Positions 12,138 through 55,339 of a stretch of 64,000 nt of DNA are shown piece after piece. A program made the position numbers and the translations under genes. Each line of letters begins with the position of its first letter. Positions within the stretch are counted from its first letter, which is position 1. The stretch is from Phaeovulum vinaykumarii (GTDB taxonomy: Bacteria > Pseudomonadota > Alphaproteobacteria > Rhodobacterales > Rhodobacteraceae): NCBI RefSeq assembly GCF_900156695.1, contig NZ_FTOM01000002.1, positions 682,001 to 746,000 on the forward strand, given 5' to 3'. The notes beneath the pieces are model-generated. The model saw only the letters and a program-made list of their open reading frames with translations, searched no databases and was not told the origin of the DNA.

Positions 12138-14405
12138 TCATTCGGCCGCGATCGCCCGTGCACCTGCCGCCTGGAGGCGGGTGAAATGGGCCACGGCCGC
12201 GTTGAGGCGCCGCGCTTCATCGAAGAGCGACGAGCTGGCCGCCGTGGTCTCCTCGAGGATGGCCACGTTTTCCTGCGTCGTGCGGTCGAGGCTGTGCATG
12301 GCCGAGGTCAGCTCGGTGATCGACACCGATTGCTCGGAACTGGTGTCCGCGATTTGCGAGATCCGGCTCACGATGGCACGGATGCCCTCGAGCACCGAGG
12401 TCAGCGCTTCGGCATTGGCGTCGACCAGGCCGACGCCCCGCTGCACCTCGTTCACGCTTTCCTCGATCAGGCCGTTGATCTCGCGTGCGGCTTCCGAGGA
12501 ACGCTGCGCCAGCGCCCGCACCTCGGAGGCCACGACCGAGAAGCCCGCCCCGGCCGGCCCGGCCCGTGCCGCCTCGACCCCGGCGTTGAGCGCCAGGAGG
12601 TTGGTCTGGAAGGCGATATCCTCGATGATGGAGGTGGCCTTCGAGATCTTGTCCGAGGAGGCGGCGATCCGCTGGATGGCTTCGGCCGTTCGGGTGCCGA
12701 TCTCCTGGCTGCTGTTGGCGCGTTCCTGCGCGTCCGACGCCAGGGTGCGGGCCTCGCCTGCGGTGCCGGCCGATGCCTTGACCGAGGCCGAGAGCTCCTC
12801 GAGCGCGGCGGCGGTTTCCTCGAGCGTCGCGGCCGAACGTTCCGAGCGCTGCGAGATGTCCGCGGCCGCGCTGGCGACCTCGCTCGAGCTTGAATCGATC
12901 GCGGCGGCGCCCTCGAGGATCTCGCCTACGATCCGGTCGAGCGCGCCGACCGTATCGTTCACCGCATCGGCGATCTGGCGGAAGATGCCGGGATGATCGG
13001 TGGCCATGCGCTGGGTCAGGTCGCCCCTGGCCAGGGCGCGCATCACCTGCATGGCATCGGTCAGACCGGTCTCGGCCGCATCGCCGATGCAGTTGATCCC
13101 CTGGGAGATCTTCACGAAGACGCCGGTCTTGTCCTCGATGCTGAGGCGGTGCGAGAAATCCCCCGCCGCGCAGGCGGCCACGACCTCGGCGATCTCGGCG
13201 GCCGCGCGGGCCTCCTGCTCGGCGCGTTCACTCAGCATCTGGCGTTCGCGTTCGGCGGCGGCGCTGCGCTCCTCGGCATGCGCGATCTGGAGCCGCTCCT
13301 GTTCGAGACGCTGCGCCTCGCTCTCGGCCTTCAGCCGTTCGCGTTCGGCCAGCCCGTCGCGGAAGGTGCCGATCGCCGCGCAGATCTCGGTGATCTCGCC
13401 CAGGTCGCTTTCGGGAACCGTGATGTTTTCTTTGCCGGCAGCCAGATCGGTGAGCGCATGGGTCACGGCTTCCATCGGTGCGCCGATCCGGCGGCAGAGG
13501 CGCCGGGCCGATATCACGAAGGCCACGACACTGCACAGCATGGCCACGGCCGAGATCGCCATCAGCAGGCCCTGCACCAGCATGGTGCGGGCCTCGATAC
13601 GCGCGACATCGGCCTGGACGGCGGCGACGGTCTCGCGCAGCGGGGCTTCGGTCGCGGCGACGGTGGCGTTCATGTCCTCGACCAGAAGGGGCAGGGCCAT
13701 CCGCTCGCCGACGATGGTGAAGAACGATCCCTGATAGGCCATCAGCGAATCCTCGATGGCGATCATCGTATCTTCGTCGATGCCGAGGCCGGCCAGGATA
13801 TCGAGGAATTCGCCGGCCTGGGTGTCGATGTCGCCCAGAAGCGAATCATCCCCGCGAACCAGGAAGTCCTTTTCGTAGCGGCGCATCATCAGCACGCGCA
13901 CCAGCATTTCGGGGTCGTCGATCGCCCGCACGCGCTGCTCGAGATCGCGTGCGGCGACGCGCATCTCGGCCTTCAGCCCGTCATCATCGGTGTGGCCCAG
14001 CCGGTTGTGGGTCTCGGCCATTTCCATGAAGGCGGCCTGATAGGTCGTGAGATGTTCGCGCAGATCGGCGATGCGGGCCTGATGTTCGGTCTCGAGCCCC
14101 AGCGCGGTCAGCTGTTCCTCGGTCCGGTCCAGCGTCTGCGCCACCTCGGCCACGATGCGGCGATGTTCCTCGATCCGGCTGCCGCGCAGCTCGATCATGA
14201 AGCTCTTCTCGGCCTCGCGCGCGGCCACGAAACCGGCCTCCACCTCGTCGATGTCTTCGACAAGGCGGCGCAATTCGGCCTTTTGCTGCTCGGCGTAGAC
14301 GCCGTAGCCGGCGAATATGCCGAACGTCAGCGCCCCGACGATGATCGCCGCCATGGCGATCCAGACGATGAGGTCCAGTGCGCCGGATATTGTTCTTTGT
14401 TTCAT
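12138..14405 (-). CDS. Methyl-accepting chemotaxis protein with helical-bimodular (HBM) sensor
   Basis: This 755-residue transmembrane chemoreceptor has TM1 at about residues 12-37 and TM2 at about 275-300. The all-helical periplasmic part carries two EK-x-F motifs, AREAEKSFM near 63-71 and [12 protein letters not shown] near 175-186, which mark the two modules of an HBM sensor. HAMP-like segments and a long charged coiled coil (about 350-405) lead to the signalling hairpin with [17 protein letters not shown]. The ligand cannot be read from sequence; characterised HBM receptors bind organic acids or purines. The tip reads [11 protein letters not shown] rather than the usual GEQGRGFAVVA. It is a single-gene unit. 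Confidence 0.92.
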
Positions 14406-16556: not shown

Positions 16557-16631
16557 TGGCTGGGGCGGTAGGATTCGAACCTACGGTGCGCGGTACCAAA
16601 AACCGGTGCCTTACCACTTGGCTACGCCCCA
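16557..16631 (-). tRNA. tRNA-Gln (anticodon TTG), CCA encoded
   Basis: The minus strand folds as a 75-nt glutamine tRNA. The acceptor stem is TGGGGCG with CGCCCCA, the discriminator is G and the 3' CCA is encoded. The D-arm AGCCAAGTGGTAAGGC and T-arm GTAGGTTCGAATCCTAC are canonical. The anticodon loop TTTTGGT gives TTG at positions 34-36. The outermost anticodon-stem pair (27-43) is C against C, a mismatch; the other four pairs are intact. Confidence 0.96.
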
Positions 16632-34053: not shown

Positions 34054-34917
34054 ATGACCAAGCCTGTCCGACCCGCCTCTCGTCGCCGGCCGCTGTTCGC
34101 GGGTGTCCGGTCCTCGTTCTTCACGGGGCTTGTCGTGATCCTGCCCATCGGCCTGACCGGCTGGGTGATCTGGTCGCTGACCGGCTTCATCGACGGGGTG
34201 GTCCTGCCCGTCATCCCCGCCGCCTGGCAGCCCGAGCAATATATCGGTATCAACCTGCGCGGCGTGGGCGTGATCTTCTTTCTGGTCTTCACGGCCACGG
34301 TGGGCTGGCTGGCCAAGGGCTACATGGGCCGGTCGCTGATCCGCTGGGGCGAGGGGATCGTGGCGCAGATGCCGGTGGTGCGGTCGATCTACAACGGCCT
34401 CAAGCAGATCGCCGAGACCGTCCTGTCGCAGGGCGAGGAAAAATTCGACCGCGCCTGCATGATCGAATATCCGCGCAAGGGCATGTGGGCGGTGGCCTTC
34501 GTGTCCTCGTCGGCCAAGGGCGAGGTCGCCGAGGCCGGCACCCCCGAAGATCCGTTGATCTCGGTCTTCCTGCCGACGACGCCCAACCCGACCTCGGGGT
34601 TCCTGCTGTTCCTGCCGCGCTCGCAGGTGCGCTATCTGGACATGAGCGTCGAGGATGCCGCCAAGCTCATCATCTCGGCGGGGCTTGTCTATCCCAACGC
34701 CAAACCTGCCGCGCCGCCCCCGCGCCGTGGCGGGGCACCGCGTCCGGGCCGCCGTCCCGCCGCGGCCAAGCTGCCGGCGGCGCGCCCGGAAAAGGCGGCC
34801 TCGGTCGCGCCGGAACTGCCGCCGATGATCCGCGCCGATCTGCCGGTGCGCACCCCCTCCGAGACCTTTGCCGATCTGGTGGCGCGTTTCGGCCCGGTCG
34901 AACCGGCCAAGCCCTGA
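34054..34917 (+). CDS. DUF502 family membrane protein
   Basis: This 287-residue inner-membrane protein has two TM helices, SSFFTGLVVILPIGLTGWVIW and VGVIFFLVFTATVGWLAKGY, each split by the family's short loops. A conserved cytoplasmic domain follows (PVVRSIYNGLKQIAETVLSQ, then FLPTTPNPTSGFLLFLPRS), with a Pro/Arg-rich variable tail. DUF502 has no proven function. I place the start at 34054, where homology begins; the longer open frame upstream to 33307 is Arg-rich and crosses the previous gene. A clear terminator follows. Confidence 0.87.
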   Translation: MTKPVRPASRRRPLFAGVRSSFFTGLVVILPIGLTGWVIWSLTGFIDGVVLPVIPAAWQPEQYIGINLRGVGVIFFLVFTATVGWLAKGYMGRSLIRWGEGIVAQMPVVRSIYNGLKQIAETVLSQGEEKFDRACMIEYPRKGMWAVAFVSSSAKGEVAEAGTPEDPLISVFLPTTPNPTSGFLLFLPRSQVRYLDMSVEDAAKLIISAGLVYPNAKPAAPPPRRGGAPRPGRRPAAAKLPAARPEKAASVAPELPPMIRADLPVRTPSETFADLVARFGPVEPAKP

Positions 34918-37394: not shown

Positions 37395-37469
37395 CGCAAC
37401 AATCCTCGCTTTCCCATAAATTTCAGGGCGGAAGCTAGCCCTCGACGCCGCTCCGCGCAAACTTTTAGC

Positions 37470-37498
37470 TTGGAGTGCAAGGCAGTTAGGGCTATACA
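37470..37498 (+). promoter_or_regulatory. Candidate sigma70-type promoter of a small RNA
   Basis: TTGGAG (37470-37475) and TATACA (37493-37498) are separated by exactly 17 bp on the plus strand, in a 300-base region with no plus-strand gene before the terminator. The -35 match is weak (3 of 6) and the -10 match is 4 of 6. Confidence 0.5.
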
Positions 37499-37500
37499 GG

Positions 37501-37578
37501 AGTCACTGCTCGATAGGTTTCTTGCCTGTATGAAACCTGCCTCATGACTTGGCGCCCGCTTTGTGCGGGCGCTTTTTT
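37501..37578 (+). ncRNA. Candidate small RNA with nested hairpin and strong terminator
   Basis: A transcript starting near 37501-37505 would fold as an outer stem AGTCA/TGACT (37501-37505 with 37545-37549) enclosing AGGTTTC/GAAACCT (37515-37521 with 37532-37538), followed directly by a terminator hairpin. No open reading frame with a ribosome site fits between promoter and terminator. It lies between the divergent SBP and bdhA genes. I do not recognise the family; the stems are seen directly, the transcript is inferred. Confidence 0.55.
37552..37578 (+). terminator. Rho-independent terminator with six-T tract
   Basis: GCGCCCGC and GCGGGCGC form an 8-bp perfect stem with a TTTGT loop, then TTTTTT. 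It is the best intrinsic terminator in the window, yet no annotated plus-strand gene precedes it for more than 2 kb. Confidence 0.93.
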
Positions 37579-37695
37579 CATGTATTCCTGAAGTTTAGCG
37601 GTGCCCTGCACCATGGTCTTTGGCGCCGGGCGCGCTAGGATCAGGGTCGAATCGTCGCGGTTTGCTGCGCGGCGGCACGGCCAGAAGGGGGTTTC

Positions 37696-53680: not shown

Positions 53681-53780
53681 CGCCCCCATCCGGGCGCGCG
53701 TGTTCCGTCTGCGCCGATCCTTCTGCGCCCGCTGGCCCCCGCGCGGCCGGTGGGCGTTTTCATGTCGGCCGCCGCGCGCC

Positions 53781-54991: not shown

Positions 54992-55020
54992 TTGACAATC
55001 CGGGCCCCGTGACAAAAATT
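54992..55020 (+). promoter_or_regulatory. Candidate promoter of the cobalamin operon
   Basis: A perfect -35 TTGACA (54992-54997) is followed after 17 bases by AAAATT (55015-55020). The riboswitch sequence begins directly after it. Confidence 0.5.
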
Positions 55021-55021
55021 C

Positions 55022-55198
55022 CGCGGGTTCAAGTTCCGGCCCGCAAGCCGGATGAAAAGGGAACACGGAACGGCCCCCTTGGGCCTAAGCCGTGGCTGCC
55101 CCCGCAACTGTGAGCGGCGAGCGACGTCATCCATGCCACTGGGCCGAATGGTCCGGGAAGGCCGACCGAGCAACGACCCGCGAGCCAGGAGACCTGCT
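55022..55198 (+). ncRNA. Cobalamin riboswitch
   Basis: All conserved blocks of an adenosylcobalamin aptamer are present in order: AAAAGGGAACACGG, GCTGCCCCCGCAACTGTGAG, ATGCCACTGGG, GGGAAGGCCGACCGAG and the B12 box AGCCAGGAGACCTGC ending at 55198. It lies 141 bases upstream of btuB. Hairpins such as GCGGG/CCCGC just before the btuB ribosome site could act as the expression platform, so B12 would shut the operon off. Confidence 0.96.
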
Positions 55199-55339
55199 TG
55201 AACCATCACCCTTTCCGGGCGCGGGGCGCGCCATGGAAGCGGAGTTCCGCAGTGGTGAGCGTCGCTGTCCGGGAGGGTCTGCCTTCCCGGGCGAGAAACA
55301 CTCTTGCGGGCCTTCGACCCGCCACAGGGAATGGAAACC

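Follow-up and report, generated by a model that had tools for sequence, protein, structure and literature searches.

An intrinsic terminator with no gene in front of it raises the question of which transcript it ends. Such a terminator lies on the plus strand of the 64,000-nucleotide stretch of the Phaeovulum vinaykumarii genome that we analyzed (hereafter the window), between a minus-strand SBP_bac_5 gene upstream and a plus-strand short-chain dehydrogenase gene downstream that we read as bdhA. A first-pass annotation had counted more than 2 kb without a plus-strand gene before the terminator and had proposed that the two flanking genes enclose a plus-strand RNA some 75 nt long. The nearest plus-strand gene upstream is indeed DUF502, whose open reading frame ends at 34917 (the plus-strand open reading frames that overlap the SBP_bac_5 gene are, in our judgement, not genes), and the proposed RNA is strongly supported by its conservation and by a covarying terminator stem. 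We therefore describe the locus as a predicted stand-alone small RNA (sRNA) gene of 74 nt at 37505-37578 (+), a prediction well supported by a sharp onset of conservation at +1, a terminator and family-wide relatives.

The conservation of this gene was established by computation at several depths. BLAST with positions 37440-37590 found the locus in 36 of 37 family genomes and in none of 24 genomes of other families. A 21-base pattern taken from the core of the RNA, with up to two mismatches allowed, occurred in 144 of 149 family genomes, while the reversed control gave no match; across the class it was found in 5 of 385 genomes, all five of them Rhodobacteraceae, and in none of the 380 from other families. 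BLAST with a 141-base homologue returned 384 of 394 family genomes, one match being weak (G785, E 9.6e-4), and, when only genomes with at least 90% completeness and no more than 5% contamination are counted, 345 of 347; the family samples of 37, 149 and 394 genomes overlap. Scanning the contigs of named genomes for a 22-base core yielded at least 118 loci, and positions +1 to +40 are identical in all 118 matches listed, 22 of these positions being fixed by the search pattern and 18 free to vary. The invariant core spans 39 nt at 37505-37543 (+), or 40 with the next A, and its first 39 nt are likewise identical in 30 of 30 alignment rows from pattern-selected loci. Variants do exist outside the 118-locus set, where 6 of 50 sRNAs carry between 1 and 6 edits within the 39-nt core. 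A covariance model of the sRNA has a single match in its own genome, at 113.3 bits, and the SBP gene is upstream and divergent in 93 of the 98 named loci with room for it, among the matches listed.

The 5' end of the RNA can be placed from the same comparison. The predicted promoter TTGGAG-17-TATACA is present as the first reading had it, with boxes at 37470-37475 and 37493-37498 (promoter 37470-37498, +), and is based on conservation in the named loci, where the consensus of the matches listed is TTGGAC-17-TATAAA; a consensus scan called no sigma-70 promoter at the locus. Its TTG and TAT also fit the RpoHI/RpoHII motif of R. sphaeroides given in the accessible part of PMC10673084. Among the 118 matches listed, the TAT of the -10 box before the core is kept at 95-99%, bases -1 to -6 vary (37-73% consensus) and the T run at +69 to +75 is kept at 91-100%. 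Since conservation begins sharply at A37505, the seventh base after the -10 box, this base is the likely start and 74 nt the likely length. Directly 5' of the -35 box lies a conserved element, CAAACTTTTAGC (37458-37469, +), whose consensus at -47 to -36 is kept in 68-95% of the 118 matches listed and which may serve as an UP element or as a site for an activator. Comparing the element by eye with the CenR motif TGA-N8-TGA, in the form given in the accessible text of PMC9275681, gave no result. Elsewhere in the window, a sigma-70-like promoter match at 54992-55019 accompanies a Cobalamin riboswitch at 55014-55215 (+, 133.6 bits), and a tRNA-Gln gene (anticodon ttg) lies at 16557-16631 (-).

The terminator at 37551-37578 (+) has a stem of nine pairs (37551-37573), eight of them G-C, and a T run that reaches 37578. 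Its description as the best of the window is borne out by the scan lists, which jointly span the window and contain six T in a row only here, while a longer stem of 13 pairs at 53725-53757 in the window terminator scans has only three T. The predicted fold of 37500-37578 outscores those of 200 shuffles (z -5.99). Covariation is seen in the terminator stem: among 40 aligned homologues, the pair 37557-37567 is C-G in 19, G-C in 11, A-T in 7, T-A in 2 and T-G in 1. Two nested stems had also been proposed upstream of the terminator, with covariation as the check. The inner one, a predicted hairpin of AGGTTTC, a 10-nt loop and GAAACCT at 37515-37538 (+), is present with 37515-37521 pairing with 37532-37538, and its pairs (37515-37538 to 37521-37532), judged from the homologue alignment, hardly vary and hence lend no covariation support of their own. 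The outer one, AGTCA/TGACT, is rejected as an RNA structure. It consists mostly of promoter DNA: of the five pairs, four involve bases that precede A37505, and these pre-start pairs are formed in only 25, 16, 25 and 22 of the 40 rows, the fifth pair being formed in 35 of 39. Loss of conservation at paired bases is thus found in the outer stem and in no other.

No Rfam family reaches its threshold at the sRNA locus. The highest of the weak matches, SorY (RF02651), covers the full length but scores 27.2 bits where the threshold is 111; it resembles the sRNA in size and terminator, but its core differs and it was rejected. A better SorY homologue, at 60.6 bits, lies elsewhere in the same genome (G000:C23:569464-569543, minus strand; L152). 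The SorY of R. sphaeroides itself scores 115, and the 111-bit threshold seems too strict for the wider family. The match to mmgR/suhB (RF00519; 23.1 bits against a threshold of 41) shares a general layout of hairpin, linker and terminator but leaves most of the CUCCCU segment of the model unmatched, and it was rejected along with the other weak matches, including Hrs13 and SpF41. A literature search whose reach did not extend to Berghoff 2009 and Gruetzner 2021 found no description of the sRNA in the accessible texts, and the letters of its sequence gave only unrelated matches among those listed. The same search gave no result for the RSP numbers next to 0827 or for the RSP number of R. sphaeroides bdhA. 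The accessible part of a paper on R. pomeroyi sRNAs (PMC4809877) has nothing on bdhA or mraZ, and the accessible part of PMC5107571 neither ties P. denitrificans 'intergenic 60' and 'intergenic 134' to the sRNA nor sets them apart from it. The sRNA may be among the numbered candidates of 2009 (Berghoff 2009).

A possible target emerged from the core itself. Its secondary near-matches in three genomes (G007, G160 and G158) lie upstream of mraZ on the opposite strand, which means that the mraZ leader, at the head of the dcw division genes, carries the complement. When pairing was computed, 36 of 39 mraZ leaders paired with the sRNA at -38 kcal/mol or better, a level reached by 12 of 400 upstream regions of other genes (those left after removing regions with the sRNA core or its complement) and in 20 of 780 trials with shuffled sRNAs. 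The leader of P. vinaykumarii pairs at -46.4 kcal/mol; the three remaining leaders (G033, G029 and G180) have energies above -34 kcal/mol, and in G130, which is counted among the 36, the calculated pairing is at another place in the leader. Seven of 46 leaders had been left out of this set for lack of a recognizable mraZ start motif. Subsequent inspection of the seven revealed arms or near-arms, as defined below, in G161, G179 and G061 and arm I only in G004, while G087 has none of the arms and G181 no true mraZ start; the leader of G017 is probably off its contig. In one further genome (G756), no mraZ was found in the 400 kb examined.

The complementarity is concentrated in two arms, found by computation and both conserved. 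Arm I of the leader (GCAGGTTTCATACAGGCA) is complementary to the segment TGCCTGTATGAAACCTGC of the sRNA (37523-37540, +), and arm II (CGAGCAG) to the segment CTGCTCG (37506-37512, +). The arm I sequence CATACAGGC is exact in 33 of 39 leaders and in none of the 400 controls, being absent in the other 6 leaders, whereas arm II is found in 31 of the 39 leaders and also in 19 of the 400 controls; both arms stand in order in 30 of 39 when C or A is allowed before GAGCAG. Mean conservation is 0.92 in arm I, compared with 0.58 in the 60 bases upstream and 0.68 between the arms, and 0.86 in arm II, compared with 0.75 in the part downstream of it. The conservation of arm II may instead serve the hairpin of the leader itself. 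Changes that keep the pairing are seen in two genomes only: G130 has UCCUA for UCAUA in the leader and UAGGA for UAUGA in the sRNA, and in G029, whose leader lacks a clear arm I, the sRNA has A in place of C2 and the leader has U in place of the matching G. Where the sRNA core differs in G087, the leader has no arms. One mismatched base (GGC for GGT) is present in arm I of both the P. vinaykumarii leader and that of R. sphaeroides. Against R. sphaeroides UpsM with intramolecular structure counted, the energy is a modest -12.6 kcal/mol and 3 of 100 shuffles are as good; when the terminator is included, the sRNA forms its best simple duplex with UpsM (-58.2) elsewhere, at 82-174. As far as sequence comparison goes, then, the case for leader pairing is one of conservation and not of energy. 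No report of such a pairing was found in the accessible parts of the literature examined.

UpsM provides a published context for the two arms. According to the accessible passages of PMC5089854 and PMC6238624, UpsM (RSs0682) is a 206-nt RNA that arises by early termination from the 268-nt dcw 5' UTR and is cut by RNase E into a 130-nt piece with its 5' end at 694,720. The former source adds that a long dcw leader with an internal terminator is found family-wide, and that the cleavage of UpsM is Hfq-dependent and very likely target-dependent as well (PMC5089854). We placed these coordinates in a genome that we take for R. sphaeroides 2.4.1, where mraZ is at 694,916 and SorY at 1,632,645, the published 5' end of R. 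sphaeroides SorY being 1,632,642 (PMC6238624). In this presumed 2.4.1 genome the published cut falls between arm I (about 46-62 of UpsM) and arm II (about 98-105). The predicted fold of UpsM has arm II in the 5' strand of a long hairpin and arm I among short helices.

We suggest that the locus encodes a trans-acting sRNA of about 74 nt, made from its own promoter and ended by its own intrinsic terminator, whose 5' 40 nt would pair with the dcw leader and UpsM. The loop of the sRNA would meet arm I (leader GCAGGTTTCATACAGGC), where only short helices are predicted, and the sRNA would also bind arm II (GCGAGCAG), the 5' strand of the long leader hairpin. With both arms bound, the long hairpin would open and expose the inter-arm stretch with its RNase E site, and this exposure would change the level of UpsM and the read-through into the division genes. 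The sRNA gene, its conservation, the two conserved arms and the place of the published cut between them are computed results; expression, dependence on Hfq, pairing in the cell, opening of the hairpin and the direction of the effect are inferred. Pairing of a trans-acting sRNA with the dcw leader and UpsM at two arms is, in our assessment, quite probably the best explanation of the locus.

Other explanations must account for the same observations. A DNA element, or a chance combination of promoter and terminator with no RNA gene, would agree with the consensus scan, which calls no promoter here, but the terminator stem covaries, conservation begins at the predicted start, and the core is preceded by a -10 box and followed by a T run among the 118 matches listed, and we give this reading virtually no credence. 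The sRNA could instead be a cis-acting leader or attenuator of bdhA, which follows on the same strand, at a median distance of 122.5 nt, in 85 of the 102 named loci with room for it among the matches listed. We regard this as highly improbable: in the other 17 of these 102 listed loci the sRNA is kept with no bdhA found within 1.5 kb, the terminator between the sRNA and bdhA is strong, and the conserved bases match another operon. A free, conserved sRNA might also act mainly on other targets, be they many mRNAs or a protein, with the dcw leader only one of several. The invariance of all 40 nt exceeds what one target strictly needs, and two further sites, assigned to genes by eye, would suit this reading: a 22-base exact complement to part of the sRNA just upstream of a motB-like gene in G032 (L198, around 1551-1572), and in P. 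vinaykumarii itself a 24-base near copy of the core with one mismatch before a gltX-like gene (G000:C10:92426-92449; L002, L204), where the complement could lie in a minus-strand transcript. Each of these sites is known from one genome, however, while the dcw leader site recurs family-wide, and we consider main targets elsewhere unlikely. The motB-like site in G032 is in its own right a possible flagellar target.

The remaining alternative, that the sRNA is an orthologue of StsR (RSs0827), is one we hold to be quite unlikely. In the accessible passages, RNase E cleavage is promoted when StsR binds to UpsM and the dcw 5' UTR, and the target and the type of mechanism would be the same (PMC8307010); the published length of 72 nt is close to the 74 nt predicted here, and the TTG/TAT promoter of the sRNA would fit RpoHI/RpoHII (PMC10673084). 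The positions, however, do not agree. Four RSs numbers with published positions (RSs0682 at 694.7 kb, RSs1543 at 1,632.6, RSs1624 at 1,724.5 and RSs2461 at 2,598.2; accessible parts of sources including PMC5089854 and PMC6238624) run in chromosome order, so RSs0827 is expected near 853 kb, and the sRNA lies at 1,444 kb in the genome taken for 2.4.1. On these coordinates we reject the identity, a distinction that rests on RSs numbering and not on the StsR sequence. A check on RSs0827 by way of a lactate dehydrogenase near the sRNA locus gave no result. About where the number predicts StsR, the presumed 2.4.1 genome has an RNA-like element at 858,068-858,139 (+; L305, about 13068-13139). Within the 60 kb examined, no other terminator is preceded by a TTG/TAC-type promoter match. 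The element was cut to the published StsR length of 72 nt, and its own length is therefore uninformative. This terminator-ended element pairs with UpsM at -21.9 kcal/mol, with none of 100 shuffles as good.

What is proposed here for the sRNA resembles what is reported for StsR, an orphan sRNA whose pairing with UpsM and the dcw 5' UTR opens the way for RNase E (PMC8307010 and PMC8625941, in the accessible parts). By coordinates the two loci are distinct, near 0.85 Mb for StsR and at 1.444 Mb for the sRNA; should the 858-kb element be StsR, its sequence is unrelated to that of the sRNA. The best simple duplex of that element without its terminator falls at UpsM 116-176, whereas the predicted pairing of the 5' part of the sRNA is near 46-62 and 98-105. 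The RNAs UpsM and dcw 5' UTR are themselves the proposed target and not the sRNA, and the accessible UpsM passages of PMC5089854 name no such sRNA. For the sRNA against rpoE, in the two genomes compared, 26 of 200 shuffles were as good in P. vinaykumarii and 53 of 200 in Albidovulum, and no rpoE was found in the readable part of the R. sphaeroides stretch examined; StsR itself reportedly base-pairs with the rpoE mRNA roughly 10 nt beyond its start.

Returning to the preferred reading, a trans-acting sRNA that acts on the dcw leader and UpsM, the comparison of sequences suggests that it is probably a second, widespread regulator of UpsM and the dcw genes besides StsR. We lean slightly toward the view that this undescribed sRNA is the ancestral dcw riboregulator, which would clamp the leader and UpsM around the RNase E cut, and that StsR is a later and more local one. 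Small RNAs that act in trans on an mRNA leader are a known class; what is new here is how widely this one occurs, its invariance and its proposed binding to the dcw leader at two arms. In our judgement, 40 identical nucleotides in 118 listed loci across a large family are unusual for a small RNA, and the invariant core predicts the dcw leader and UpsM as its partner. If correct, this would provide a two-arm mechanism around a mapped RNase E site and a family-wide partner for UpsM and the dcw leader, linking division-gene expression to an sRNA in many species.
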